Part shown: piece by piece, positions 8,673-51,976 of the stretch | How the letters are laid out: each line of letters starts with the position of its first letter | How positions within the stretch are numbered: position 1 is the stretch's first letter | From: Hesseltinella vesiculosa | Taxonomy: Eukaryota > Mucoromycota > Mucoromycetes > Mucorales > Cunninghamellaceae | DNA length: 64,000 bases | Assembly (NCBI GenBank): GCA_002104935.1 | Contig: MCGT01000002.1 | Span: 620,001-684,000 of the forward strand | Direction: 5' to 3' | Position numbers and translations under genes: made by a program | Notes under the pieces: model-generated | What the model was told of the DNA's origin: nothing | Databases searched by the model: none | What the model saw: the letters and a program-made list of their open reading frames with translations, nothing else

Positions 8673-8676
8673 GATG

Positions 8677-8758
8677 CGTCAGCGGCAGGATTTGAACCTA
8701 CGCAGGCAGAGCCTATGTGATTTCTAGTCACACTCCTTAACCACTCGGACACACTGAC
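8677..8758 (-). tRNA. tRNA-Ser (anticodon AGA)
   Basis: 82 nt, no intron, CCA not encoded. Acceptor stem GTCAGTG pairs with CGCTGAC (one G-U). The D arm contains the B-loop-like GAGTGGTTAAGG, the anticodon stem is TGTGA/TCACA with loop CTAGAAA (anticodon AGA), there is a long variable arm typical of class II tRNAs, and the T arm has GGTTCAAATCC. A T6 run follows directly on the transcribed strand. Confidence 0.95.
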
Positions 8759-9443
8759 TTGATGAACGTTGAAGTTCCAGAGGTCACATGATCGTCATAT
8801 GTCACGTGATCAGCGATTTAACCAATCAGATCACCATCTGATCGCTGGACCCGGCGATCCGGGCTATCGCCATTGGCCGGGGGAAATTGATGTTAGAGCC
8901 GGATGCACAGGGAATTAGCATCTGTTTTTGCCAAAAAAAAGTCATCACTCATTCATTGGCATTCACATATCATATCATCCGTGCCCTCAGTCGTTCATCA
9001 TTGCCATCTTTATTTTCCCCTACCGTATAAATTCTCAATCTCTATTACAGCCTTTCCCTCACCTCGTCATCTGAATTCAGAAAAAAAAATCTTTTTTTTT
9101 TTTGGGGAGAACATGCCGAATAACCGGAGATCGAATTTGGAGATTTGCTAGTCTTATGTTGTCGGCAAATGAATTTTTTTGCCGCTTTTTCTTTGGCATG
9201 ACTTGCCACTACCAAATATGGCAGGTGCTCTAGAGTGTAAATCTGTCGCGCAGGGAAAATCATCATTCACATTCAAAAAAAGACTTTTATATTGTAATAT
9301 CCCCACTTTTGATATGAAATAAAGAATGCCTTTTTATTACCTTCTACCTCTGCCTCAAATGTGACAGTAGTAGGTAAAAAAAATAAATTGGAGGTCAAGT
9401 AAAAAAAAATCAACATCCTTGAAAGTCGCTCAAGGAAAAAGAA
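8759..9443. other. spacer between the two tRNA genes, with inverted-repeat cluster
   Basis: No gene recognised. The first ~120 bp upstream of tRNA-Ser (about 8785-8885) are dense in short palindromes: CATGATC, TCACGTGATCA, CAGAT-CACC-ATCTG nested inside CAGCGAT...ATCGCTG, and CCCGG-CGAT-CCGGG. Further on, a hairpin (CCTTGA/TCAAGG, 9417-9435) plus a T9 run lies downstream of tRNA-Asp on its strand. Confidence 0.4.
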
Positions 9444-9515
9444 CTCTCAGACGGGGAATTGAACCCCGGTCTCCCGCGTGACAGGCGGGGATACTCACCA
9501 CTATACTATCTGAGA
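9444..9515 (-). tRNA. tRNA-Asp (anticodon GTC)
   Basis: 72 nt, no intron, CCA not encoded. Acceptor stem TCTCAGA/TCTGAGA, D arm TAGTATAGTGGTGAG, anticodon stem-loop CCCGC-CTGTCAC-GCGGG with anticodon GTC, and T arm GGGGTTCAATTCCCC, the eukaryotic tRNA-Asp signature. A T5 run (9440-9436) follows on the transcribed strand as a Pol III stop. Confidence 0.96.
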
Positions 9516-10753
9516 GAGATATTTTTCAAAGCGGGGAGACATATATCAGTGGAGTACGGAAATTTTTGCGCAAAATTTTTGCCTACAGGCATCGGGGTGC
9601 TTCCTGATTAACATGCAAGCTCTAAATATACAGATAAGCCAATATTGAAGTTTAGCAATAACTTAAAGAAATATCTTACAAACGGTTTAATTTTTGTCGT
9701 CATTTTAGAGTGTGTGGCAGAGTTGCCAAATATGGAAATCGTGATTTCAAAAAAATGTCATTGCACTGTGAAGACCTTGGTAACGTCCTCAGTTTAAAAT
9801 GACATTGTACTTTTTTTGTGTCATGTCACTTCTTCATGGTATACTGTTGATAAAAATCTGCTGATGTGCCTACTTGATGGCAGCTTCATTAATCTGGGAA
9901 GGACGCGAAGAAAAAAAAAAAAGCGACGACTTTTTAGATTCCGACCGGCGTCCAATTATGGATGAGTAGCATCTAAAAATGCTAAAGTGACAGCATATCT
10001 ACTTCATCTGTTCGAATCCTACCATTGCAAACCTGTTTGTTTTTGGTCTCTTCTTTGTGTCGACAGGACAGAGAAAGTTTTGGACAGCCAATGGTTTTTT
10101 CCGGCCAGCGCCAGCCTTTTTTTTTTTTTTTTTTGGTCACCTTGCACAATGATCCATGTCAATATCAAAAAAAAAAAAGAAATACCCATTGGCTGTCAGG
10201 TTTGTTTCGGGTTATCCGATATTTTTTCATTTGGTCACCAATTTTTTTTTCTTTTCCAAATCAACGTTGGTTCCGTGGTAAAAACGACCGTCTTGAAAAA
10301 AAAAAAGAGCCAATGCTGGTCATCAATATGGACGGTCGCTAAAAAAAGTTTGAAAAAATCGAGCCAGTTCGTGGAGAAAGCACCTTCCTTTTTTTTTTTT
10401 CCCTCCTGTGTTCTGATCTTGAGGGCAACGATAAGTAGAGCACCAAGGTTGGAGGCTGATGGTAATGTTGGCATTTCCCGTTTGTCGATAACCGCTTGAC
10501 GTGTGATGACAGTTCTTTGCAGGAATTTTTTTTTAAAAACCAGGTTGCCTGAGATCAATGGCGAAAAAAAAAATAGGCTGCAGAGGCCAAATGCAGCTTA
10601 CTCTCCTGTCTTCCTCCTCTTCACTTCTTTCCATGACAGCAGCATGCCTGCCATAAAAATAGCACATAAGAGGAGTGGTCTGTTGCTGGCGGCACGGTTG
10701 GAGAAAGAAAACAAAAAACGATGCCAACATTTATTCTTGTTGATCTAATGGTC
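9516..10753. other. 1.2-kb spacer, no gene supported
   Basis: AT-rich with many 9-16 nt A or T runs. Several frames are open because the homopolymers lack stops. One minus-strand stretch near 10,390-10,500 reads SNLGALLIVALKIR, which could be a membrane helix, but I find no start, partner exons or family resemblance. AATAAA on the minus strand near 10,730 is a plausible polyadenylation signal of the Ssr4-like gene. Confidence 0.4.
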
Positions 10754-19025: not shown

Positions 19026-20609
19026 GGCTGCCAACTTCTCATTGGGCATCTCTAAAAAGCTGCCAGATTTCATTGGGCATCTCTAAAAGCTGCCAGATTT
19101 CATTGGGCATCACTAAAAGCTGCCAGATTTCATTGGGCATCACTAAAAGCTGCGGCATCTCTAAAAGCTGCCAGCTTTCATTGGGCATCACTAAAAGCTG
19201 CCAGATTTCATTGGGCATCTCTAAAAGCTGCCAACTTTTCATTGGGCATCTCTAAAAGCTGCCAGATTTCATTGGGCATCTCTAAAAGCTGCCAGATTTC
19301 ATTGGGCATCACTAAAAGCTGCCAGATTTCATTGGGCATCATTAGAAGCTGCCAGATTTCATTTGGGCATCACTAAAAAGCTGCCAGCTTTCATTGGGCA
19401 TCTCTAAAAAGCTGCCAACTTTTCATTGGGCATCTCTAAAAAGCTGCCAACTTTTCATTGGGCATCTCTAAAAGCTGCCAGATTTCATTGGGCATCACTA
19501 AAAGCTGCCAGATTTCATTGGGCATCACTAAAAGCTGCCAGATTTCATTGGGCATCACTAAAAGCTGCCAGATTTCATTGGGCATCACTAAAAGCTGCCA
19601 GATTTCATTGGGCATCACTAAAAGCTGCCAGATTTCATTGGGCATCACTAAAAGCTGCCAGATTTCATTGGGCATCACTAAAAGCTGCCAGATTTCATTG
19701 GGCATCACTAAAAGCTGCCAGATTTCATTGGGCATCTCTAAAAGCTGCCAACTTTTCATTGGGCATCTCTAAAAGCTGCCAGATTTCATTGGGCATCTCT
19801 AAAAGCTGCCAGATTTCATTGGGCATCTCTAAAAGCTGCCAGCTTTCATTGGGCATCACTAAAAGCTGCCAGATTTCATTGGGCATCACTAAAAGCTGCC
19901 AGATTTCATTGGCATCACTAAAAGCTGCCAGCTTTCATTGGGCATCTCTAAAAAGCTGCCAGATTTCATTGGGCATCACTAAAAGCTGCCAGATTTCATT
20001 GGGCGTCTCTAAAAAGCTGCCAGATTTCATTGGGCATCTCTAAAAGCTGCCAGATTTCATTGGGCATCACTAAAAGCTGCCAGATTTCATTGGGCATCTC
20101 TAAAAGCTGCCAGCTTTCATTGGGCATCACTAAAAGCTGCCAGATTTCATTGGGCATCACTAAAAGCTGCCAGATTTCATTGGGCATCACTAAAAGCTGC
20201 CAGATTTCATTGGGCATCACTAAAAGCTGCCAGATTTCATTGGGCATCACTAAAAGCTGCCAGATTTCATTGGGCATCTCTAAAAGCTGCCAGCTTTCAT
20301 TGGGCATCACTAAAAAGCTGCCAGCTTTCATTGGGCATCTCTAAAAAGCTGCCAACTTTTCATTGGGCATCTCTAAAAAGCTGCCAACTTTTCATTGGGC
20401 ATCTCTAAAAGCTGCCAGATTTCATTGGGCATCACTAAAAGCTGCCAGCTTTCATTGGGCATCTCTAAAAAGCTGCCAGATTTCATTGGGCATCTCTAAA
20501 AGCTGCCAGCTTTCATTGGGCATCTCTAAAAGCTGTCAGCTTTCATTGGGCATCTCTAAAAGCTGTCTGCTTTCATTGGGCATCTCTAAAAGCTGCCAGA
20601 TTTCATTGG
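19026..20609. repeat. minisatellite of 30-bp units (about 50 copies)
   Basis: A head-to-tail array of a 30-bp unit with consensus AAAGCTGCCAGATTTCATTG followed by GGCATCACTA. Units vary at two sites: AGATTTC / AGCTTTC / AACTTTTC, and CATCAC / CATCTC. Some gain one or two bases in the A4 or T3 runs, and one is truncated (about 19,150-19,165). Ten consecutive units around 19,470-19,730 are nearly identical, showing recent expansion. Because 30 is a multiple of three and the unit lacks stops in several frames, long open frames exist on both strands (10-residue repeats), but they break at indel units and I do not call them genes. Each unit contains ATTGG, i.e. a CCAAT box on the minus strand. Confidence 0.97.
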
Positions 20610-20670
20610 TGTTGTCTTTCCCATGGGCACTTATACTACTGCTTTTTTTCTTTGTCATCCAACCACCAGT

Positions 20671-21555
20671 GACTTCCAACGTTGTGGAAAGGTACATGAA
20701 AAGCTTCACTTTACGAGTCAGATCACATCACTATTCACGAAGTCGCAAGGATACCAGCGCTAAACTCAAGATGCAGCCCAGCTTTGGCTGAAGGCTGGTG
20801 TTGACTTTATGCAAAACTGCGTCTTGTTGACAAGTCAATGGCCTAACCGCTTTGCATCACATAGAAAACAGAGCATTGTGCCTGTGTTCACAATTCAACC
20901 CGTAAGCATCCCTTATTTTAACCAACATGTTGTTTCAAGGAATCTTAATGGGCTGCAACAGTAGTTTATTAAAATTAGATTTTCAAAAATCAATATGACT
21001 ATTGTAATCTCTAGACCCAGTTCTTGAATGCCCGTTGAATGCACTTGGACCTTGGAGACCAATGTTGAGGAAAAAGAAGAAGCGAAAAAAAAAATTGCGG
21101 GGCGGACAGCATAGTTGGTGCCAAGCCTAGATCAAAAAGTCAATGTTTTTGCCGATTCCAGGCTTGGCCACCAGGTCAAGGCTCAGGGTCAAAGTGCATT
21201 CAACAGCGATTCAAGAGCTGAGTCTAGCAATTACAACATTGCATGGCGTCATGTTGATTTTGAAAATATATATTCTAGTAAGCTAGCAGGAGCAGCGTGC
21301 TGGTTAAAACAAGTAGGCTCAGAGTTTGATTTGTAAGAACAGGCTCACTGCTTTGTTTTCTATGTGATGGAGAGTAGGAGGTTAGGCCATTGACTTGTCA
21401 ACAAAGACACTGTTATGCATAAAGGCGACATCAGGATCCCGCCAAGGTTGGAGTGCGTCCTTGCATTTGGTGATGGTGTCGTTGCGGCCACGTGGAGAGT
21501 AATGATATGGATCGTAACTGAGGCTTTCATGTCTTTTCACAGATGGTTGGAAGTC
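20671..21555. repeat. long imperfect inverted duplication (fold-back)
   Basis: The left arm (20671 to ~21129) matches the reverse complement of the right arm (~21160 to 21555) along its whole length at roughly 70-80% by eye, with small gaps. Anchors are GACTTCCAAC / GTTGGAAGTC at the outer ends, GTTGACAAGTCAATGGCCTA (20825 on) with its complement near 21,380-21,400, TTTTAACCA blocks, GTTGAATGCACTT, and an inner hairpin GGTGCCAAGCCT / AGGCTTGG. The outer right arm, read on minus, is open for ~60 codons (NDFQPSVKRHESL...DVAFMHNSVFVDKSMA); the left arm encodes a diverged, broken version. It may be an inverted pair of pseudogene fragments or a fold-back element. Confidence 0.75.
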
Positions 21556-21635
21556 GTTGGTCGTTGGAAGACAAAGACAAAAAAACAGTATATTAGGCAG
21601 GACCCAGAATAAAAATAGAAAAACGAAAACAACTG

Positions 21636-21915
21636 CGCGGAAATTGAATATGGGACTCTCTTCGTTTCGCATAAAAAAAAAAGGCAAACACTGCACAGCA
21701 CTTTTGGGCATCAGATCAATGTGAAATTATGCACAAATGCCCAAACCAATGAGTGATGATGCTGCTGAAAATTTCACGTCGATTGATGAAGATCGCTCAG
21801 CCAACTTTTAATTGCTTTCGTTTTGACATCTCCGATCCGTCAGCTAAAAAAATGCCATTTTCATCAGGGAACCCCCCAGGCGATCTGAATAAATTCACCC
21901 CAAATTTTCCATGCT
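21636..21915 (+). repeat. dispersed repeat family, copy c
   Basis: Contains the family blocks in order: AGCACTTTTGGGCATCAGAT, ATGAGTGATGATGCTG, GATCGCTCAGCCAACTTTT, TTCGTTTTGACATCTCCGAT, CAGCTAAAAAAA, GGCGATCTGA, and TTCACCCCAAATTTT at the end. The frame KIAQPTFNCFRFDISDPSAKK corresponds residue by residue to copy e, so the repeat derives from something once coding or is conserved in that frame by chance. It lies between the fold-back and the Fanzor gene. Confidence 0.7.
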
Positions 21916-22673
21916 ATTACAAAATGGTGGGAGCTGACTTTGGCTAAAGTTGCTTTTCTCCCAGACACAGGAGGGAAGGGAAGGACTTTCTCGCATACTT
22001 GGAAATGATTTAGCAGGTCGATTGGATCACTCACTTGTCCTCAAAAAAATGGCCCTTTGCGATGCACTATGGAAAATTTGAGAAGAAAAAAACAGCGCAA
22101 CCAATCAAATAGCCAGCTGCATATGCGCTACTAAGCGCACTAACATGATCCGCTTGCAGAAAAGAATTTCTCGCATCTTTCTGCAAAGCATGTTGTTTTT
22201 ACCACCTTGGGTTTATAGACCAAACATGGTAAGGCATAGGGAGAGGCATGCGTGAAATAGACAGAATGGTATGGATAGTCGCAATTTATTCAATCTGGAG
22301 CATTTTTGTTTAACTGAGGATGACTCTGGGGCTTGAATTTTTTTTTTCGTGGTTTGATTTGCCAGGCAGTGTTAAGGTTTTATTTAAGAAGCACAGTAAA
22401 ATGAGCAATAGAGATAGGCAAAGAGTGTTACCTTTATCATTGACGGTACGCTACTTCATTTTATATTTCAAAAAGAAAGGTACGTAGTAAAAAAAGGGCT
22501 AAGGATGTGATTGGCGGTCATGCTCACTGGCATTGGCATTGGTTTGATCTTCCGCAACACGCGATTCTTTTTGTTTGTTTGTTTGTTTATCTGGCTCTTC
22601 TATCTTTTTCTTTATTTCTGCTCATTTTCTTCTATCTTTTTCTTTATTTCTGCTCATTTTCTATCTTTCCCTG
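21916..22673. other. spacer upstream of Fanzor, with a 32-bp tandem duplication
   Basis: No gene recognised. (TTTG)n at ~22,570-22,589 is followed by an exact two-copy tandem of a 32-bp pyrimidine-rich unit (22597-22628 and 22629-22660) ending 13 bp before the chosen Fanzor ATG. No clear element terminus is visible. Confidence 0.45.
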
Positions 22674-25600
22674 ATGCAATCGCTTCTTCAATCCGTCTAC
22701 GTAACTCTGTGCCACATCCCTGAAGAAGATTTCCGCCGGGCGTTGCCTGATCAGTTGGGCCAAGCTTGGATGACCACCGAACAATTCTACACTGTTTGGT
22801 CACAAGCAAAAGTCTATCGTCAAAGTAATCCATCACTTCCATCATGTCTTTTTCTTTACCCATCTTCGTAGGACGGGAAACTGGGCCCACGCCACAACGA
22901 CGTGCCCAACAACAGGAACAAAACGATCGCGCCGAAGGGAGACGGCAGCGCCAAGAAGATGAGCGAAATCCTGATGCTGTGGGACCGTGTGCCACATGCG
23001 GCCAAATGGGACACTGTTCGTCTGCCAGCCGCCTCTGTCCTTTCCATCGCACGAACAAGAAGGATTATATCAACGAGATGATGCCAGGTGGTGAGCGCTA
23101 CACCATAAAAAAAAGCTTTGAAGATGCCGTCCGGCAGCCTTTCAAGCTCGCTTTGAAGCGCAACATAGAATCGACCAGCGCCTGCAACAAGAACATCCTT
23201 TTCCGCCTCCAATTGTTTATCAACCATTTCGCTCTCACTCACCCGTCTGACTTTAAAAGCATCATGATCAGCCAGAACGGTCTCCTGTCCATCTCGCAGC
23301 TCATCTATCCCCGCAACCCGCGGCGACCGGGGATCACCAACGCTCACATCCTGCGAAGCCTTCCTCCCACCTTTCTGCCTCACTGGAACCAGTTTGTCCG
23401 CGACCACCCAAACATCGTGTACAACCCCAACGACCACCACGGCATGGATCCGCTCGACAATGCAGCCCTACTCATTCCTGCTGATGACCGCAGCCTTCAC
23501 TTCCATCACCCGCATAAATTCTATGGAGGTACTTTTGGGCCATGTTTGTCAACGCTTGCCACCGCTTACTCCAATTGCTTGGTGATCGACTTTGAGAAAA
23601 AGGTCAAGAAGTTTATTCGATTCTCCTTTGCCATCACGGATGTCCAAGTAAGTTTTTTAAAAGGGCGGTACCAAAAAAGGGAATGTGTTCTGACTTTTTT
23701 TGTCTCTTTCAGATCCCTCATATTGACCAGCAGGTGGATGACATCTACACAAACTTCGCAGAAAGACCCTCCCACCCTCAATCAGGGGTCACATCTGGAT
23801 CGGCCACAAACACTGTCCCTGGCGTGTCTGCCGAAGAAGCGGCGATTGCCGATGTGAAGGCGAAAACACTGGCCTTGAAACCCCACTACGTTGGTAAATT
23901 GACATCAACAACTCTGTCCCGAAATCCTAGCAGTGCCTTGCTTGTCTACACAAACATCAACAAGCAATACGAGCAGTACAAGTCCCAGCCCAATGCCAAC
24001 CCCAAAAAATGCCCAAAGCTTACCATCCTTCCTGAGCCTCACTTTGGACGCCGATTCATCCCCATCTTACCCGACACGATCAAATATCTAGCCGAATGCG
24101 ATGCCATTGAAACAAACAACGACAACTCTGGTGTACCCGACGCCGCATTTATCCGTGCCTTGCCCATGTTTTTCAAGGTGTTCCACATGGAGAAGTTCGA
24201 CTTTGGCAGGCCTGGGTACGGGAGGTAAGTTTCGCAGACACCAAAAAAAAAAAAAAAAAAAAACAACTTCTAACTTTTTTCTTCTTCTTCTCACCTAGTG
24301 TCCAGGACATGCTTGAGGGTATACTATACAACCGTCCACTGTTTGCTTGCCACATTTGGTGTGATGGCGTTTCGTGCTGCTTTGAATTTATTCGTTTGCC
24401 AACCACGCATCGCCCAACGATGAAGCTGCCCAGCCTGGACCACTGGGATACCGAACTGGTCGATCGCTTCGACATGGTCGCCGTCGATCCAGGCCGCCGT
24501 GCCATCGTCACCGGAAGCTATGGCACCCCTTATCCACTTTCTATGCTCCCTGAAACCCGGGATGACGAAGACTCTGCAGGTGAAGGTGAACCCGATAACG
24601 ATAATGACGAAGAACAAATGGCTATCGACACCCCATGTCCTACTCGTACTGCTCAGCCTGCACATCAACATCAGGACTTTGACAACGCCACTGGCAGCAC
24701 TGATATGGAACAAGGAAATCTCTCTATGCCTATGATTGACGATGCCGATCCTACCACCCCGATCCCCCAGTCTCACCATCTGCCTTACCGAGTCATCAAG
24801 GTATCAGCAAAGGAATACCGCTCGCAATGTGGAACGCAGCGACGAATTCAGCAATTGGAATGGCGCAAGGTTTCCACGACATACTCCTTCCGAGGTCAGC
24901 AAATACCATTTCACCAGATGGAGGCTGCCATCCCATCCCACCGAACCACCAGCCCCGCCGAATATGCCACTCGAATCCAATACTTGATCGATCGTCTCCC
25001 GCTCTTCTTCGACTTTTACGGCCTTCAGCATTCCATCGACCGCTTCAATGCTTACAGAGGGCGCCAGCGGGGTGTTGCATACGTTGCCAGTGTTCTTGCT
25101 GGGCTGTCCAAGAAGTATGTCAAGTCCCAGCGCAATGTGCGTGGCCACCGCAAACGTACCCACCGCAATCGGCGCAAGCGTCAGAAGAAAGCTCGGAAGA
25201 AAAAGGCCTTCAAGATCAGCAATGCCAAGAAGGCGATGGTGGAACACCTTGCCACAATGGATATTGCTATAAAGAAGATCGAGGATTTAGTGAACTGCTG
25301 TGCTGGCTCGACATTACCTGGGGCGATGGATACTTTGGTTGCAACATTGCAAACCATGCGCACCCAACGCGACCTGGACCATGACATCCGCTTTACTCTG
25401 ATCAGCCAAATGGAAGAAAAGAGGCAAGTCATCACGGCTTTCAGGAGGTCCACCAGGTGGTGCTGATTTTTTTTTTCCAGTGGTAGACCTGCGCCACCAA
25501 TGAAACCAACCACACGAATGCGCCATGGCGTGACAAAATACCCCAGCCAAAGAATTCCATTGATCCTCTTTGGTGATGGCCTCAAGGGCCGGAAGGTCGC

Positions 25601-26000
25601 CACCCCTTTGAAAAAGCAACTTCCTGGTTCGTCCTCCCTGGTGTTCAACCAATTGGAAGACCGGCAACGACAGGGCAAGCTTTCTGTTATCTCGCTGAAT
25701 GAGTTCAAAACAAGCAAGGTGAGTAAAAAAAAAAAAGAGGTGTGTCAATAGCAACGAGGCGACTCATTCTTTTCTTCAACACAGCTCTGCTCCATGTGCC
25801 ATGGCCCAACGAAGAGCCCAGCCATGAATGGTAGCAAGGTGTATGGGCTTTTACGCTGCAGTTCTTGTAATGTCACCTTTGACCGGGATGTGATGGCGGC
25901 CTGCAACATGGTGTCTATTGGCCAGCACTTTTTCCAACACAAGCAACGCCCCCTGGCCTTTTGCCCGCGCCGACGGCCTCCAACCTCTCCTACCGCTTAG
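22674..26000 (+). CDS. Fanzor (eukaryotic TnpB-like RNA-guided DNA endonuclease)
   Basis: Six exons (22674-22824, 22872-23647, 23713-24224, 24299-25423, 25481-25718, 25785-26000) join in frame to about 1005 residues with no disabling mutation. An N-terminal zinc-knuckle-like cluster (CATCGQMGHC...CP, residues ~90-107) is followed by a helical region, then the split RuvC domain: first Asp in VAVDPGRRA (D543), then after a long acidic insertion and a very basic segment (RKRTHRNRRKRQKK) the Fanzor-type glutamate in SLNEFKTSK (E929), zinc-ribbon pairs CSMC (936/939) and CSSC (959/962), and DRDVMAACNM (D967/D969). The glutamate just before the ribbon, rather than the TnpB position, is the published hallmark of Fanzors. 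Intron 4 is GC-AG. The start is the Met before the first conserved-looking segment; an upstream start is possible. Fanzors use a guide RNA encoded near their 3' end; nuclease activity here is inferred. Confidence 0.88.
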
Positions 26001-26268
26001 TTTTCATTTTTATTCACCAAAGCAACCCCGCAAAAAGGGTTACCGTCTGCTCTGGCAAGAACGCGTTTAATGCTTTTATCCGGTAATTGGTGTTTTTAGC
26101 CAACACTTAACACAAGTTCTGATTGGTAACGGAGTTTTCTTTTTTTCCATAGTGGACTGTGCAAATGCGATCGTTTCATTGGATGTGTTTTCACATTCCG
26201 GCACTTTTTGAATCAGCAGGCACCAGCTGTTTTATTTTTTTTTCTTTCTCCTTCGTCTTTATTCCATA
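26001..26268 (+). other. Fanzor 3' flank, candidate omega-RNA / element end
   Basis: Non-coding 268 bp between the Fanzor stop and the next start. It holds a hairpin AACCC/GGGTT (26024-26041) and a longer pairing TTACCG (26040-26045) with CGGTAA (26081-26086). In TnpB/Fanzor systems the guide scaffold lies at the 3' end of the coding region and the guide matches the flank. That this stretch works so is inference only; no terminal repeat or target duplication was found. Confidence 0.25.
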
Positions 26269-26754: not shown

Positions 26755-27655
26755 TTACACCATAGCGATGATCGGGTCGGTGGTGATCACTTTTTCCATT
26801 TGCTTGGCTCTGAGATAATCAGCGACGGAGCGAACAATAATAAACCAGCCCAGGATCATGAAAAAGTAGGAAATGATTGCGACATTGGCCATTCGGTCTT
26901 CTTCGTCGTCACCCAAGTCCTCGAACTGGTCCCAGTTGGTTTCTGCCCAAAAAAACGTCATCAGTCTTCGACTTTTTTTTTTTTTTTTTTTTGGCAATGT
27001 AGGCTTACTGCTTTTTAAATAAAATCCAAATTGAACAAATGAGATGCCAAGACCAGCGCGTGAACCGTTCCTGGCGGCATGTGTGCTGTGGAAGAGATAG
27101 GTCAGGATGAAGCCCAAGAATTGCAAACTGGCTGAGATCAACAAGTTCCAGAAAAATACAAAGAGTGAGCCAACGGGCAAGCCATCGACCAGCACGTAGC
27201 CTTCGGCCAAGGCAGGGGCAAGGATGGTGGTTTGCCAATAGGGTGGAGTGGCATCCTGGACAGCAGTATGGTAACTTGGAGGAGCTTCTTGCTGTTTGGC
27301 TTGATCGGATTCGGGTTTGGCGGACATATTGGCAAAGACGCCATCATGGGATGGCATCACTGGTAGATCGGAGGCATGAGAGCTGGAAGAGGCGACAGTT
27401 GGGATGGGGGTATGTTGAGAGATGGTGCTATCGGGTATCGTTATGGTGTCGTCCAAGGATTCATCAAATGTTAGCTCCAGATCCGTTCGTTGTTGTTCAT
27501 CATGTATCTCAGACGTTGGGACCTGATAAAAAAAAGGAGTGAATTAGCATGGCCCAATATCGCGTTGATGAGTTCTTCCATGCCTAGCTTTTTTTTTTTT
27601 TTTTTAAAAAAATATACATATATAAATATAAACTTGCCTGATGATACTGTGTCAT
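26755..27655 (-). CDS. BSD2: BSD2 / NDFIP-like Nedd4-ligase adaptor membrane protein
   Basis: Three exons (27655-27638, 27522-27009, 26942-26755) give about 239 residues. A polar N-terminus carries the PY-type motifs APPSYHTA and TPPYW, the ligands of WW domains in Rsp5/Nedd4 ubiquitin ligases. Then comes the family core DGLPVGSLFVFFWNLLISAS, FILTYLFHSTHAARNGSRAG, FGFYLKS and a final MILGWFIIVRSVADYLR, giving three membrane helices. In yeast Bsd2 directs metal transporters such as Smf1 to vacuolar degradation, an interesting link to the Nramp gene 11 kb away, though co-location proves nothing. The first exon encodes only six residues and its donor is GCAAGT (GC-AG intron). The intron before the last exon contains an A22 run. 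Confidence 0.85.
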
Positions 27656-35151: not shown

Positions 35152-37040
35152 CTACAGGGCGTCTAAGTTTTTGTCTAGTAGCTCTGCATGCACCACTTGC
35201 ATTGCTTTGATGGCATCGGCCTCGGCAACAACACAAGAGATATTGATTTCAGAGGCGCCTTGAGAGATGATTTCGATACTAATGCCAGCCTTGGCCAGCG
35301 TGGTGAACATGTGTCCGGCCACGCCCACCATGCTTTTCATTTGCTGACCTACCAGGGACAGGATGGCCATGCTTTCCATGACATCTACCTGAAGACGAGC
35401 AAGTACAAGGGCAAAAAAAAAAAATGAGTGACTGGGCGCCAAAGGTCAGCGCCAAACGCTTACCGAGCCAAGGACGGAGAGCTGGCGAACGGCTTTTTCT
35501 AATGCATTGGTGCCCAAGTCTGTACCGAGAGCCATAGAGACGTGCACTTCAGAGGTCGAGATCAAATCCACAACAATGCCATGTTCGTCCAGGGTGGTAA
35601 AAATCTTGGCCAAAAAGCCGTGGCTGACGTTTTTGCGGTTGGAGTGGACGTTGAGAATAGCAATACCATCTTTGATAGTGACGGCTGTGGGATGCTTAGG
35701 AAGAGGGGTCGTGGCATTGCGGGCGGTGCCGTTAGCGGCGCCATTGGCGGCTGGGGATTGGTCGGGAGGTTGGGGAAAAATGATGGTGCCGTGGCCCTGG
35801 GGGTTTTTGACGTTTTTGATGCGAATCGGGATATGCGCACGGATCACCTGGTCCATGGTGAAGGGATGGATGACTTCGGACCCATAGTATGTCAGTTCAG
35901 CAGCTTCGTCCGGTGTGATTTTGGGCAACAGGCGAGCGGTGGCCACTTTGCGCGGGTCTGCTGTGAAAATGCCATCGACCTCTTTCCACACTTGAAGTTC
36001 CTCGGCGTCCAGACCAACCGCCGTCAGTGCTGCACACAGGTCGGTGTAACCTCGTCCGATTGTCGATAGTAAGCTTCCAGGAACATGGCCAAAGAAACCT
36101 ATGTCACGCAGAATCAAAAAAAAAAAGGAGAGGGGTTAGATCAGTCATCAAGCCATCTCTGCCGACTTGCCTGTTAGCACTGGCACCTTGTCTCCACATT
36201 GTTGCACAATGGTCGCGAGTCGCTGTGCCAGGTAGTCGTAAAAGGATTGATCCAAGACTGAGAATTCTTGATCGATCATGTTGTTTAGATTGACAAATTC
36301 GCTATCAATTCCCTGTAAAAAAAAAGTCGGGATGAGCCATGGCTTTGTCGAGGGTTGGTTGGTTCCTACCTTGTCCTTCAATACAGCAGCTACCAATTTA
36401 CAGGAGAGCATTTCACCCATTCCTATGATCACATCTTTTGACCGCGGTGAGATTTCTTCAATGATCTAGCATGTCATACAAAGTCAGCATCCTGTCATTT
36501 TCTACGTCTTGGTATCTATGCTGTTTTTTACCTCGGCAGCTTGTAAAAAAGATTTAAGGCGAAGGCAGTCGTTTTCGATTTGTTGGCAAACTTGCTGAAG
36601 CAGGTCAGGGTTTTGGATATGTGCCTTTGCAGCTTGAAGATGGTCTGCTAGGATGTCCTTGACCAATTCTATATGGATGGTCGAGCCTTCGATAATGGCT
36701 TCGGCAGCCGCTTTCAGCAGCCTGTCAGGTGAAAGGGCGTGAGCTGTCAAGAGCGAAAACGGTAGCAACGTCGGTTTTATTTACCTGTTTGTTGTACCAG
36801 TTTCCTTTGAATGGCCACTCTGGGCAGAGCATACAACGACAACTCGATGAGATTTCAAAGAGGATCTAAAGTGTTGGTCAATAAAGAGGCAAAGGAAAAA
36901 AAACAAGAGACGGCTTACGGCACTATGACGGAGGTGATGGTGTCCAAGCATTTCCCAACGCTTGTGCCACCGTATTTTTGTACTAGCCAAGGTAAACTGG
37001 GTTGGTTCCTGGAGAGGGGTATAGTCGATGTTGTGTGCAT
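35152..37040 (-). CDS. HOM3: aspartokinase
   Basis: Catalyses ATP-dependent phosphorylation of aspartate, the first step to threonine, methionine and isoleucine. Seven exons (37040-36919, 36865-36785, 36721-36532, 36465-36370, 36312-36171, 36098-35464, 35388-35152) give about 500 residues. VQKYGGTSVGK near residue 25 is the amino-acid-kinase motif, VVVVCSAQSG and GRGYTDLCAAL the ATP/substrate loop, and EVDGIFTADPRKV the diagnostic aspartokinase motif. Two C-terminal ACT domains (DGIAILNVHSNRKNVSHGFL and MAILSLVGQQMKSMVGVAGH) imply feedback control, by threonine in other fungi. An insertion rich in Ala/Asn/Gly separates the kinase and ACT domains. The donor after exon 5 is GCAAGT (GC-AG intron). 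The start is the first Met before the conserved strand. Confidence 0.92.
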
Positions 37041-46986: not shown

Positions 46987-49900
46987 ATGTCTTTAGCACA
47001 TTCACATGCGTCAACGATACCCCCTTCTTCACATGCATCAGACAAGCCTCCTTTCCTGACAGACAGTGCCATTCCTCCAGCGCCTCCTCCACCTCCTCTC
47101 CCATCTAAGGCCATTTCTTCTGAAGATCAACAAAACGTAAAAACCATGGCATCCGTGCCTTTCATTGACGCAACTATACTAACCTCATTTATTGCTTGCT
47201 TTTATTGGTGTTGGTTAGTTGGAAGAATGGCTTATGCAGCTGGATCGAGAAAAAAAGATGAAGCTGGGCGTGGAAAACATGTTGGAGGTTTACTTGAAGG
47301 ACAAGAAGCGTACAAAGGATTTGGAATCCCAACTAGAAAACTACAATGCCACCATCCTATCTCTGACAAAGCGTATCGATGAACTGCGGCTGTTGGCTGG
47401 TAAGTGTCCCCTCTCTCTAAACAGTCCAGCTCATTTTTTCGTTGGGAACGATCTGGTCTAGGCAACGACAGTGACAATACCAACGTGATTGCACTCTTAC
47501 GAAAACACAATTACCCCATGCATCGTGGCTTTCCCGCAACCGCCGCCAAGACAAAGCCTCCACAGCAACGAGTTGGCAAACCGCGCTCAAACAGCTCTCC
47601 CAGTCATCGACAAAAACAGCAGCATAATATTTCGTTTCCTGACGACGGTAACCACCTTTTTTTTTTTTCTTTCGGGAACGATTAAACTGTTTTCTTTCTT
47701 AGACGCTTGGCCTTTGGGGAAACGGCTACGGCACATCGTTGAACAGCTGTCGATGGATGAATGGAAATCGGCTTCACCAAAGACGGATGGCTCGGCCTTC
47801 AAAGAATCAAAAATGGAAACCCTGGATGTACTCGTGCGAATATTGAAAAACACGGCGGATATCGATGTCTATCACCCAAAGAAGAACGTCATTGCATGGT
47901 AAATCACGCCCTCTCCTCAACCCACTTTTTTTTTTTTTTTTTTCATATCACCTCTCTTTTTATTACCCCACTCAGCTCACCACTCCGATTCATTAGTTTA
48001 CGCCAGTGTATTGCCAGTCCAAATCGTGAACTGCGCGTTCTTGGGTTTCGAGCTCTAAGGCATTTGGTCAACGAAGCGTTTGATGTAGAAGTCATGATGC
48101 AATTGCACATGGATATCTTCATTGTCCGGTGAGACACCCAAAAAAAAAAAAAAAAAATAAAGTGCCTTACGCCTTTATTACCCTAGGGCTATGACGCGAG
48201 ATTCCGATTATTACGAGCCTGAACGAGAACAAGCCCTGAAGCTGATCCGTACTTTTTTGCAAGTGGGTGGCGCACAATACCTGTCACAATCCATTGTCCG
48301 GGCTGTCACTGCTGTGGCCGAGCAAACCGATTGTCGCTTACGAAATGTGTGCCTGGAAACCCTGTCTGAACTTGGTAAAGAAAAAGGAAGAAGGAGGTTC
48401 TCAGCGATGAGCTGACATTTTTTTTTTTTTAAGCGGTCCTGGACATTGCTTTGACGGTGCGTGCTGGTGGATTACGAGTGATCTTGCAGGCCTTATTAGA
48501 TGGTCATTTGAACATGACGGAGGTGCTGTGTTATGCATTGGTTTATATCTTGGACACTCCTGAACGACGAAAGTACATGCGGCCTGGTGTCGAGCTGGAA
48601 ACGTTGATTGCGCCCTTTACCGAGGCTAGTAAAGGCGCCACTTTTGAAGAACGTCTGAAGAACAGTGTGAAGGTGGTGACCTTTTTGCTCAAAACATGGG
48701 CAGGTATCTTGTATATGTGTGCCAACAATATGCGTGCAGCCCGCTCGATTGTCCTCGCCCTTCGCACTCCTGAAAGCGAGACCAAGGTAAGTGGCAAGTT
48801 GGATGGATGGCCCTAAAAAAAAAGGCACTGATGACTCGTTCCGTAGAAAATGGTGCTGGACATGTTTGTGGATATCTTTCGAGTCCAACTCCCCAAAGAC
48901 TATGACAGCTATTTGAACGGCCGACAACACAACGTCACGATGTTCCCTCCTGAACCAAAACAAAGCGAAGTACACGGCATCCACGGCATGATGATGATGG
49001 GCGACGACTATATATCCTCGGCTGCCACCATGTTCGGCCTCCCCTCGGATGGCACCAATGGCAGCGGCAGCTCCGGCAGTGTAGGCACGACAGGCGCTTC
49101 GGCGGCCGGCAGCAACTCCCTAGCTTCTGTAGGTATGCTGACTCGGGCGGATGGTTACCGACCCTTGTGGATGACAGGCGTGACCTCGGCCAACAATCGT
49201 GAGCGGCTCAACATGCTCGATCAACATCTATCTGTCGTCTTGATCATCTTCATCGAAGCCGACATCCTTTCAGCCCTCATCGATTTGGTCAAGAGCGACG
49301 ACGTCTACCTGTCCCGAAAAGCAACGCTTCTCATCGGCGAGATTTTACAGCTGTCGACCCGCCTTTTACCGATGCTCATGGCTAGCCAGGTCCAGTCACT
49401 GCCCAAGCTGTTTGCCTTGGCCTCCAACTTTGACGACGAGCTGGTGCGACACAACGCCACCGCCGCCTTGGCCCATATCGACCGCCTGACCCGCGCACGC
49501 GCCCGGTATGCTGCGGTTGCCTCGGCCACCCAACGACAGCAAGGTCTCGGCTTCTCCATGTCTTCCAATGCCGTGGCTGCCGCCGCCATGGCTGCCGCCG
49601 TTGCAGCTGCAGGGCCAGTCGGCCACACCGCCCTGCCTTCGCGCCGTATCGGGTCCATGCTGATCAACAGTTCCAACCAAGAAAAAGTCCACGAGGTCAA
49701 GCTAAAGATGGGCTATGCCATCGACGATGCCCATTTCCGCCAGCTGCTAATGGATACGCAGGTCCTTAGCACCAAGGACTATACAAAATGGAGCTGGGAC
49801 AACATCACCGAGCTTCTACAAGGGCCGCTGCTCAACCCCAAACGCCTGGACGAAGCAATGCGCAGCCGCAAGTTCATCAAGCGCCTGCTCGCCTTTTACC

Positions 49901-51976
49901 GCCCCTTCAAGCATCAGTTCTCCGACATCCATTGCACACGTGCCAACGTCATTCGCTACGTCAAGACCGGCTGCACGCTACTGTCCACTCTCCTCAGCCA
50001 TTCCGACGGTGTACGGTACCTGGAGGAGAACAGGCTCCTTGCCGAAATTGCCGAAGCCCTGGGCGAACTGGATCCATTGCGCCACCTGCGTGACCCCAAC
50101 AACGTTCAGGTAGCCGACCCTATCTTTTCCAAGGAACGCATGGTCAACACCCTGACCAGCGGCTACTTTACCTTGCTGGGCGTCCTGACCAAGCAGAAGG
50201 ACGGCTCGCGTGCCATGGAAAAATTCAGCCTGTTTAGCTCCCTCTACCAAGTCTCGGAGCTGCGCAACCGCGACGACCTCAAGATTGCGATGATCACCAG
50301 CATGGACTATGCCATGGATGGCCACCCGCGCGTGCTTCTGTCCAAGATCATGACGTCGGGCTACAACCCCATCCGTCTCTTTGCCACCAAGCTTGTGGGC
50401 CATATCATGCGCCGTGGCGACGACCACGCCTCCACTGACTGGACCATCCGCCTCCTTGTCACCCAGCTCTACGATACCCACTTGGAAGTCGCTCAAATGG
50501 CTGTCCAGCTCCTTGACGAAGCCTGTCACCAGCGCCATCATTTGGAACTCCTTGTCAAATGCCGACCCAGCCTCGGCCATCTTGGTGAAGTTGGCCACCC
50601 GCTGCTCCTCCGGTAAAAAAAAAGACAAAAAAAAAAAAAAAAAAAAGCTGGAAAAACGAGGATAGTGCTGACTTTTTTTTTCTTCCATTCCCAGGTTCCT
50701 GTCAACATCCACCGGCTTTAGATACTTGGATGACCTGGATTATGTCGAAAAGGAAATGGACGAGTGGTTCGAGGTAAGAAGAGATTTCCAACATATTGCA
50801 TGGATGGTTGACCCCCCTCCTCCCTGAATTAACCAACATTTTCCAGTTCCGGAACCAGCAATATGTCATCCAGTTGGAACTCTCGCTGGCGAGAGCTTTG
50901 GCAAATTCTCCATGCAAGAAAATCAATCCTTTTGAAGAACGCGTGGACAGCGAATTTGATTTTGAACAGCTGTAAAGATGCCTATGGCCATGCCTTTGCA
51001 CGCCGACTGACCACTTTTTCCATAGTCAACCTGGTGACGGGCTGTCGCCTCCCCATTTCTATGGCGAATTGACCAAAACTGAGGAAGGATGCACTCTGTT
51101 GCGAGAAAAAGGGCATTTCCGACAGTTCACCCAATTCCTGCGCGACCATTGGGACAAGGTGTACGACGTCCAGACCGTTCAGCAACTCAAAGCCGTGCTG
51201 TGGGCCATTGGTAACATCGGCTCAACACGCAATGGTTTACCATTTTTGGAAGAAGAGGAGATCGTCAAAGATATCGTATTCATGGCCGAGCATTGTGAGA
51301 TTTTGTCACTGAAGGGGTAAGCAGAAAAGAGGTTTGGCATTAGGTTTGTTACTCACCGGCCTTTTCACTTCAGCACTTGTTTCTATGTCCTGGGCTTGAT
51401 CGGCAAGACGCATCAAGGGATTGAGCTTTTGGGTGAGCTTGGCTGGGAAGGCGTGGTAGATTCAGACGGGCTACCGGAAGGATTATGCGTACCACTCAGC
51501 TTTCATGACATTCTGTCGGTGAGTTCCTTTTTTACGCCCTCAATAGGCAGAGCTGACTTTTTTTTTTTTTTTTTACTTGGGCCTAGATCGGCAAGTGGGA
51601 ATACACGCCAACATTGTCAGATCCGCCCAAGTTACCCAAATCCATCACCGAGGACACCATCTCCACTGATATTTTACGAAACATTGGTGATATGAGCAAT
51701 CATATCCTTGCGAATGAAGCGTCCAAAAACCTTGCCAAGTAAGCATCCATTATCTCTTGCCTGAAATGAGCCTTGCTGACGCACTTTTTTTTTATTTTTA
51801 GACTTCGACAGCTTCACGTTGACCACTTTAAGAGCGTGCCACTCTTTTACTCCGTATGTCAGCTACTGGGTAGTTACCATTTCCGGTCTTCGGTGCGCAA
51901 GTATATCTTGGAAGCCTTTGACATTCGTTTTAGCCATGAAGCTTTCGACGCCTTGGACAATCTGACCAGCGATTAA
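46987..51976 (+). CDS. AVO3: TORC2 subunit Rictor (Avo3/Ste20-type)
   Basis: Scaffold of TOR complex 2, which controls actin, cell-wall and sphingolipid responses. Fourteen exons (46987-47136, 47219-47399, 47462-47647, 47703-47898, 47976-48128, 48187-48374, 48434-48786, 48847-50612, 50695-50773, 50847-50971, 51026-51316, 51374-51518, 51587-51738, 51802-51976) give roughly 1,380 residues. A proline-rich N-terminus and a short coiled coil (EWLMQLDREKKMKLGVENML) precede long helical repeats. Rictor blocks visible include FISLRQCIASPNRELRVLGF, MTEVLCYALVYILDTPERRK, MDTQVLSTKDYTKWSWDNIT and LKAVLWAIGNIGSTRNGLPF. Exon 8 (1.77 kb) is far more GC-rich than the rest and carries a Ser/Gly/Ala-rich low-complexity insertion and an Ala-rich run. 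One residue block near the end (GTCFYVLGLIGKTHQGIELL) is the conserved C-terminal Rictor repeat. Confidence 0.9.

Follow-up and report, generated by a model that had tools for sequence, protein, structure and literature searches.

Does the Fanzor-like gene at positions 22674 to 26000 of this stretch of Hesseltinella vesiculosa DNA stand alone, or does it belong to a mobile element, and what might the nuclease do for such an element? PMC10432273 describes the role of Fanzors in their carrier elements as unknown. In the 64,000-nt window (i.e. the whole stretch of DNA that was analysed) and in the genome around it, what was noted as a single gene turns out to be part of a well-preserved family of transposons, which we call F1.

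The gene in the window and its protein

The earlier note, made from the letters of the window, had proposed that six exons (22674-22824, 22872-23647, 23713-24224, 24299-25423, 25481-25718 and 25785-26000) join into one open reading frame; spliced in this way they indeed give 3018 nt without an internal stop, encoding 1005 residues. It had also named one GC-AG intron. The GC donor of intron 4 (AG/GCAAGT) is borne out in 23/23 copies of the element, but the proposed acceptor, CCAG, is present in only 3/23, and a GTAG acceptor ending at 25486 occurs in all 23 F1 copies. With this second acceptor, conserved in all copies, the window protein has 1003 residues, and the frame is kept. All exons lie on the forward strand: exon 1 (22674..22824) and exon 3 (23713..24224) are defined by splicing and by introns common to the copies; exon 2 (22872..23647), defined by splicing and a motif check, contains a zinc-knuckle-like CxxCGxxGH motif; exon 4 (24299..25423), placed by splicing and motifs, holds the RuvC-I DPG motif (Asp 543), an acidic insert and a basic helical insert; exon 5 (25487..25718, starting at 25481 in the earlier model) follows the acceptor kept in all copies and contains the alternative Glu 927 in LNEFKTSK; exon 6 (25785..26000), placed by splicing and a PF07282 match, holds the C4 zinc ribbon, the DRD motif and the stop. 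The CxxCGxxGH motif lies near the N-terminus in 23/23 F1 copies and is also present in a related family, F1b; as a Pfam zinc knuckle it scores below significance (E 0.49). A structure prediction for exon 4 with one homologue reached a pLDDT of 52 and a pTM of 0.29.

PMC10711439 gives two fingerprints of Fanzors, a DPG in RuvC-I and an alternative Glu that precedes the zinc finger by six residues. In the F1 protein the DPG is found in VAVDPGRRA (Asp 543), and in LNEFKTSKLC six residues separate Glu 927 from the first Cys; the pattern [TS][TS]xx, then a C4 zinc ribbon, then RD, is found as TSKLCSMC..CSSCNVTFDRD. The catalytic motifs already named in the earlier note are all present (VAVDPGRRA; SLNEFKTSK, here ahead of CSMC; the DRD, here in CSSCNVTFDRD), and window 25734-25910 scores 31.5 bits against PF07282, above the cut-off of 26.3. 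Searching the PDB with the single F1 sequence gave LaTranC and TnpB-like L79 at E of about 0.003. A PDB search with a profile of F1, F1b and a third family, F2, returned SpuFz1 (8gkh) as top match (E 1.2e-5), closely followed by LaTranC (3.9e-5) and L79 (5.8e-5); the two 8gkh stretches matched by the profile are weak singly (E 1.7 and 0.064), and the F2 core by itself matches 8gkh at 6.2e-5. The gene belongs to a eukaryotic mobile element, of which this fungal genome contains at least 23 dispersed copies that share their ends. Taken together, the DPG, the alternative Glu, PF07282 and SpuFz1 as top profile match support the claim of a Fanzor homologue; on sequence grounds the F1 protein is a Fanzor, and probably a Fanzor1. 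With about 1003 residues it lies above the range of 400-700 residues quoted for Fanzors (Figure 6 legend, PMC10432273).

A search with the full 1005-residue protein gave no match at E <= 0.001 among the 8000 candidates scored (0.55-1.75x query length admitted). An alignment search with a 524-residue core found two proteins, both from H. vesiculosa (Mucorales, Cunninghamellaceae): the best pieces of F1b are 93-98% identical to one of them, with the best match (98%) on contig C22, and the other has a genome match at 99% across its first 177 residues. In viral contigs, 599 pattern-matching stretches encoded no relative, the query being exon 4 read into its flanking introns. We found no description of the F1 family in the consulted literature on Fanzors (those of Mucorales included) and on H. 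vesiculosa.

A transposon family with an intact gene

The gene is the only one of a 4090-bp element on the forward strand (22065..26154), with the left end CACTATGGAAAA and the right end TTTTCCATAGTG, which is delimited by an exact end pattern and by the same right boundary in at least 23 copies. The element is without a transposase. In the H. vesiculosa genome F1 comprises at least 23 near-full-length copies with a length of 4.09 kb, a lower bound, with 40 of 659 candidates scored; the other 22 copies are 88-97% identical to the window copy and the right boundary is common to all. The five introns are kept in 23/23 copies, which rules out retrotransposition and shows that F1 is copied at the DNA level. 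Eleven of the 23 copies (L009, L011, L013, L015-L019, L021, L025 and L026) are intact, i.e. their frame runs uninterrupted between ATG and stop and every intron has GT/GC-AG sites, and 11 are broken; in L029 the frame is open, but one donor is AT and an Asp replaces the alternative Glu.

Averaged over all pairs of the 23 copies, broken ones included, the first, second and third codon positions diverge by 4.5, 3.9 and 8.8%, and the introns by 10.9%. The number of copies, at least 23, and this difference between codon positions and introns exclude chance as an explanation for the gene. The mean dN/dS of the family is 0.27, the acidic insert (561-645) being least constrained (0.49), and mean terminal branches are similar for intact (0.0095) and broken (0.0107) copies. 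The F1 gene family is under purifying selection, and the window gene, which had seemed complete to the earlier note, is indeed so and belongs to this family. In favour of a single domesticated host gene, the window copy is intact and lies near ordinary genes such as the NEDD4/Bsd2 gene. At least 23 copies, 11 of them intact, which share their ends while their flanks are unrelated, speak against such a gene; the dispersed copies rule it out, and we consider it scarcely credible.

The earlier note had placed the gene in a 'repeat island'. A tandem array (19027-20609) and an inverted-repeat stretch (about 20643-21583) bear this out for the surroundings; the element with the Fanzor, by contrast, is repeated in dispersed form. 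The array has a 30-bp unit in about 50 copies and the inverted-repeat stretch consists of nested arms; window 21504-22015, with matches of 74-82% identity at other genome places, is probably another mobile or foldback repeat. Genes near F1 encode a NEDD4/Bsd2 family protein (window 26758-27543), an amino acid kinase with an ACT domain (35449-36135) and RICTOR (48847-50613); tRNA-Ser(aga) and tRNA-Asp(gtc) lie on the minus strand at 8676-8758 and 9443-9516.

Two further families were compared with F1. F1b (L039, L051-L060) has six copies, with a core 49% identical to that of F1. Both F1 and F1b start with CACTA and finish with TAGTG, as part of inverted repeats (CACTATGG/CCATAGTG in F1; CACTACGGG with CCTAGTG-type right ends in F1b). 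F2 (L003-L006, L008, L040, L041) measures 4.93 kb and has the DPG and the alternative Glu; its ends are unlike those of F1, and five copies, 97-99% identical over about 2 kb, are young. In total we count about 93 Fanzor-like loci in 27 Mb, a figure that takes in remnants as well as distant matches (24-41% identity); it comes from 46 PF07282 places, the 23 F1 copies and 95/96 match places of the Hesseltinella protein closest to F1b, clustered within 6 kb. Further diverged Fanzor-like groups are found at 24-41% identity. For S. punctatus, 42 Fanzor loci, full-length or partial, are reported (PMC10432273).

Fixed flanks and predicted target motifs

The window copy is preceded by GATG (22061..22064, forward strand), which does not match the right flank GACT beyond GA. 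Directly after the right end, GA is found in 23/23 F1 copies, if one additional G is allowed for L030, and CA in 6/6 F1b copies; F2 right flanks follow no GA rule. At the left junction GA is preceded by a pyrimidine in 14/14 F1 copies, these being the copies in which GA was recognised by eye at the left junction, the other nine dropped. In F1b, GC stands ahead of CA in 5/6 copies. Comparable flanks are reported for better-known elements: Spu-1 has TA duplications (PMC3627910) and a conserved CA ahead of its left repeat, with a measured TAM of CATA (PMC10432273), and in an IS607 TnpB element a fixed right-flank base is part of the RNA scaffold (PMC10711439). By analogy with Spu-1/SpuFz1 and IS607 TnpB we predict TAMs that end in YGA for F1 and in GCCA for F1b. 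Empty insertion sites were not seen among the 40 of 78 candidates scored, nearly all of which are the occupied flanks themselves.

A candidate guide RNA at the right end

The conserved 3' non-coding stretch of the window copy (26018..26154, forward strand), marked by low divergence and by F1-F1b matches, is a possible omega-RNA scaffold, judging from its position and constraint. The 155 nt past the stop (26001-26155) diverge by 4.0%, compared with 10.9% in the introns and a dS of 0.14; the 5' leader diverges by 3.3%. Two of the four F1-F1b nucleotide matches extend into the 3' stretch. For 16 sequences, some of them decayed, the consensus fold contains 20 pairs, two of them with compensatory changes, and 57/500 shuffles matched it for the compensatory count and 30/500 for the covariation score. 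The 3' sequence of the window copy folds on its own no better than shuffles (z +0.91), and Rfam gave three matches on 6001 bases, all far under the gathering scores. We claim constraint and position for this stretch, and no structure. The predicted guide segment would lie directly beyond it, in the right flank beginning with GA (26155..26174, forward strand), with its position taken by analogy from PMC10432273 and its length after SpuFz1.

In sum, F1 is mobile and multi-copy; its right end is fixed and followed by a fixed GA, its gene is intact and under purifying selection, and its 3' stretch is constrained. A reading that would join these features, and to which we give an even chance, is that F1 is a non-autonomous CACTA..TAGTG transposon moved in trans, with a functional Fanzor, a guide RNA at its right end and a role of the nuclease in copying the element back. 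The element would probably be moved by a transposase of the CACTA/EnSpm class. Its right end probably encodes a guide RNA that would run through the right end, so that adjoining genomic DNA serves as guide, most likely as TnpB is thought to work. The Fanzor may then recognise the site as it was before insertion, next to a motif that ends in YGA (F1) or GCCA (F1b), and cut the empty site on the sister or homologous chromosome, and the cell would repair the break from the element-carrying chromosome, whereby the element is copied back in.

The same element and nuclease could also serve another end: the Fanzor would help or hinder other elements in trans, or take part in regulation, and not promote the copying of its own element, and the selection observed would stem from that role. 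Purifying selection indicates some function and not which one, several Fanzor families are found side by side in the genome, and PMC10432273 calls the biological role unknown and suggests help in trans to other transposons. The candidate RNA and guide, however, sit in the right end of F1 itself, and the right flank fixed throughout the family links the nuclease with the place where its own element inserts, so that we regard a role in trans or in regulation as rather unlikely, if a serious contender.

Left junctions and target duplications

The left ends are less uniform than the right ends. GA stands eight bases ahead of ATGGAAAA or TTGGAAAA in 11/15 F1 copies that retain this motif. L015, L017 and L019 have exact 4-bp repeats directly at an intact left end (3/8 intact F1 ends); general 4-bp matches are not clearly above those of mismatched pairs (12/23 compared with 172/506). 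Three of the four intact F1b ends have a 3-bp repeat, of which only one further base is informative, since CA is fixed. Longer matches of 10-12 bases are found in L018, L025, L026 and L028 (4/23), whereas 0/506 mismatched pairs have 8 or more; in L025 three bases are common to the element, so that the true duplication is 8-11. The F1b copy C66 has a duplication of 9-13. These long repeats are real, and in all five copies, i.e. L018, L025, L026, L028 and C66, the left end lacks its first bases. C1 (F1b) can be read in two ways, as a 5-bp repeat next to an end that is damaged or as a 3-bp CAA repeat next to a left end carrying two substitutions. The junction of L030 is complex and shows a 6-bp repeat, and filler sequence is present at the junctions of L018 and L030. 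With C1 taken as damaged and long and L030 omitted, long repeats occur in 6/16 damaged and 0/12 intact copies (P 0.024); other defensible classifications give P of 0.044 and 0.053, or 0.18 with L030 as intact. The link of long repeats to damaged left ends is suggestive only. Similar cases are known: in CRe-1 longer duplications of 7-19 bp, and a few of 44-443 bp, are linked to imperfect 5' ends, and MCi-2 has fuzzy 5' ends with duplications of 11-12 bp (PMC3627910).

One-ended insertion would also account for the long repeats, as would the cutting described below. Here, the right end would be joined precisely at GA/CA and the left end closed by host end joining, which would nibble the left end and leave duplications of variable length, as proposed for Helitron2-type Fanzor elements, and the Fanzor would be a helper or bystander. 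The fixed right end (23/23) next to varying left ends, the long duplications in the four F1 copies, the filler at L018 and L030 and the same pattern in CRe-1 and MCi-2 (PMC3627910) are in line with such a process. On the other hand, the CACTA..TAGTG ends of F1 and F1b form inverted repeats and several left ends are intact and bear short repeats, which suits a two-ended transposase, and the genome contains only one Helitron_like_N fragment, without shared ends. We therefore judge one-ended insertion to be unlikely.

It is also conceivable, albeit improbable in our view, that the long duplications are fossils of Fanzor cutting. The Fanzor would cut the empty site slightly to the right of the insertion point and repair would copy the element in, starting from the right; were the left junction then closed by microhomology joining and not by homology, whatever lies between the insertion point and the cut would remain and appear as a long 'duplication' next to a nibbled left end. 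The lengths of 8-13 bp in F1/F1b, 7-19 in CRe-1 and 11-12 in MCi-2 fall within the measured cut distance of SpuFz1 (16-21 nt) and would fit such scars, but CRe-1 also has the few far longer duplications. If true, genomes would already record Fanzors as cut-and-copy nucleases, and insertion-site motifs would predict TAMs.

Possible mobilisers

For the preferred reading, of a transposon moved in trans, an enzyme acting on F1 is possible, since Transposase_21 (EnSpm/CACTA-type) genes are present at seven genome places, among them L061-L065. The genes of L061-L065 are rearranged or diverged from each other. F1-like ends near Transposase_21 were not found in three 9-kb regions and one 3.5-kb locus (4/7 places). 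Members of the CMCT clade have CA..TG termini and duplications of 2-5 bp, EnSpm of 3 bp (PMC12730594). As F1 encodes no transposase and has no end-sharing partner in the loci examined, we speak of 'CACTA-like ends' and do not file it as a member of CACTA/EnSpm. A Helitron was considered as carrier and rejected, the one Helitron_like_N fragment of the genome having no F1 or F2 match around it. Eight right-end-only matches are old remnants, with no recognised transposase frame among them; four (L044, L045, L047 and L049) contain clear Fanzor pieces.

Comparison with known systems

With at least 23 F1 copies, 11 of them intact, F1b with another flank dinucleotide and about 93 loci, the genome is a good natural experiment, and the F1 family gives concrete predictions for the guide, the target motif and cut-site scars. 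The closest parallel is Spu-1/SpuFz1 (Spizellomyces punctatus, Fanzor1), like F1 an inverted-repeat DNA transposon that encodes only a Fanzor (PMC3627910, PMC10432273), with about 20 full-length copies of which about half are intact (9/17, 2013; PMC3627910), no transposase within the repeats, an RNA at the right end (a candidate in F1) and a conserved insertion-site motif. Spu-1 differs in its length of about 2.1 kb, its uninterrupted frame of 633 residues, its 33-bp repeats and its TA duplications; F1 is 4.09 kb long, with a gene that has five introns and encodes 1003 residues, CACTA..TAGTG ends and a flanking GA. Omega-RNA and cleavage, proven for SpuFz1, are predictions for F1. CRe-1,2,3 (Chlamydomonas) and MCi-2 (Mucor circinelloides) resemble F1/F1b in their fixed 3' end, their variable 5' ends and the longer duplications at imperfect 5' ends (7-19 bp in CRe, 11-12 bp in MCi-2, 8-13 bp in F1/F1b; PMC3627910); CRe, however, has Helitron2 ends and MCi-2 no recognised repeats, while F1/F1b have inverted CACTA..TAGTG repeats and slight left-end losses only. 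PpFz1 (Parasitella parasitica, Mucorales) is, like the F1 protein, a Mucorales Fanzor with an insertion in the RuvC domain (PMC11423790); its insertion binds cyclophilin and its TAM is ATN. CACTA/EnSpm and the CMCT clade, finally, share CA..TG termini, and perhaps short duplications, with F1 (PMC12730594), unlike which F1 is without a transposase, has exact repeats of 4 bp where these are seen, and shares no ends with the Transposase_21 loci examined.
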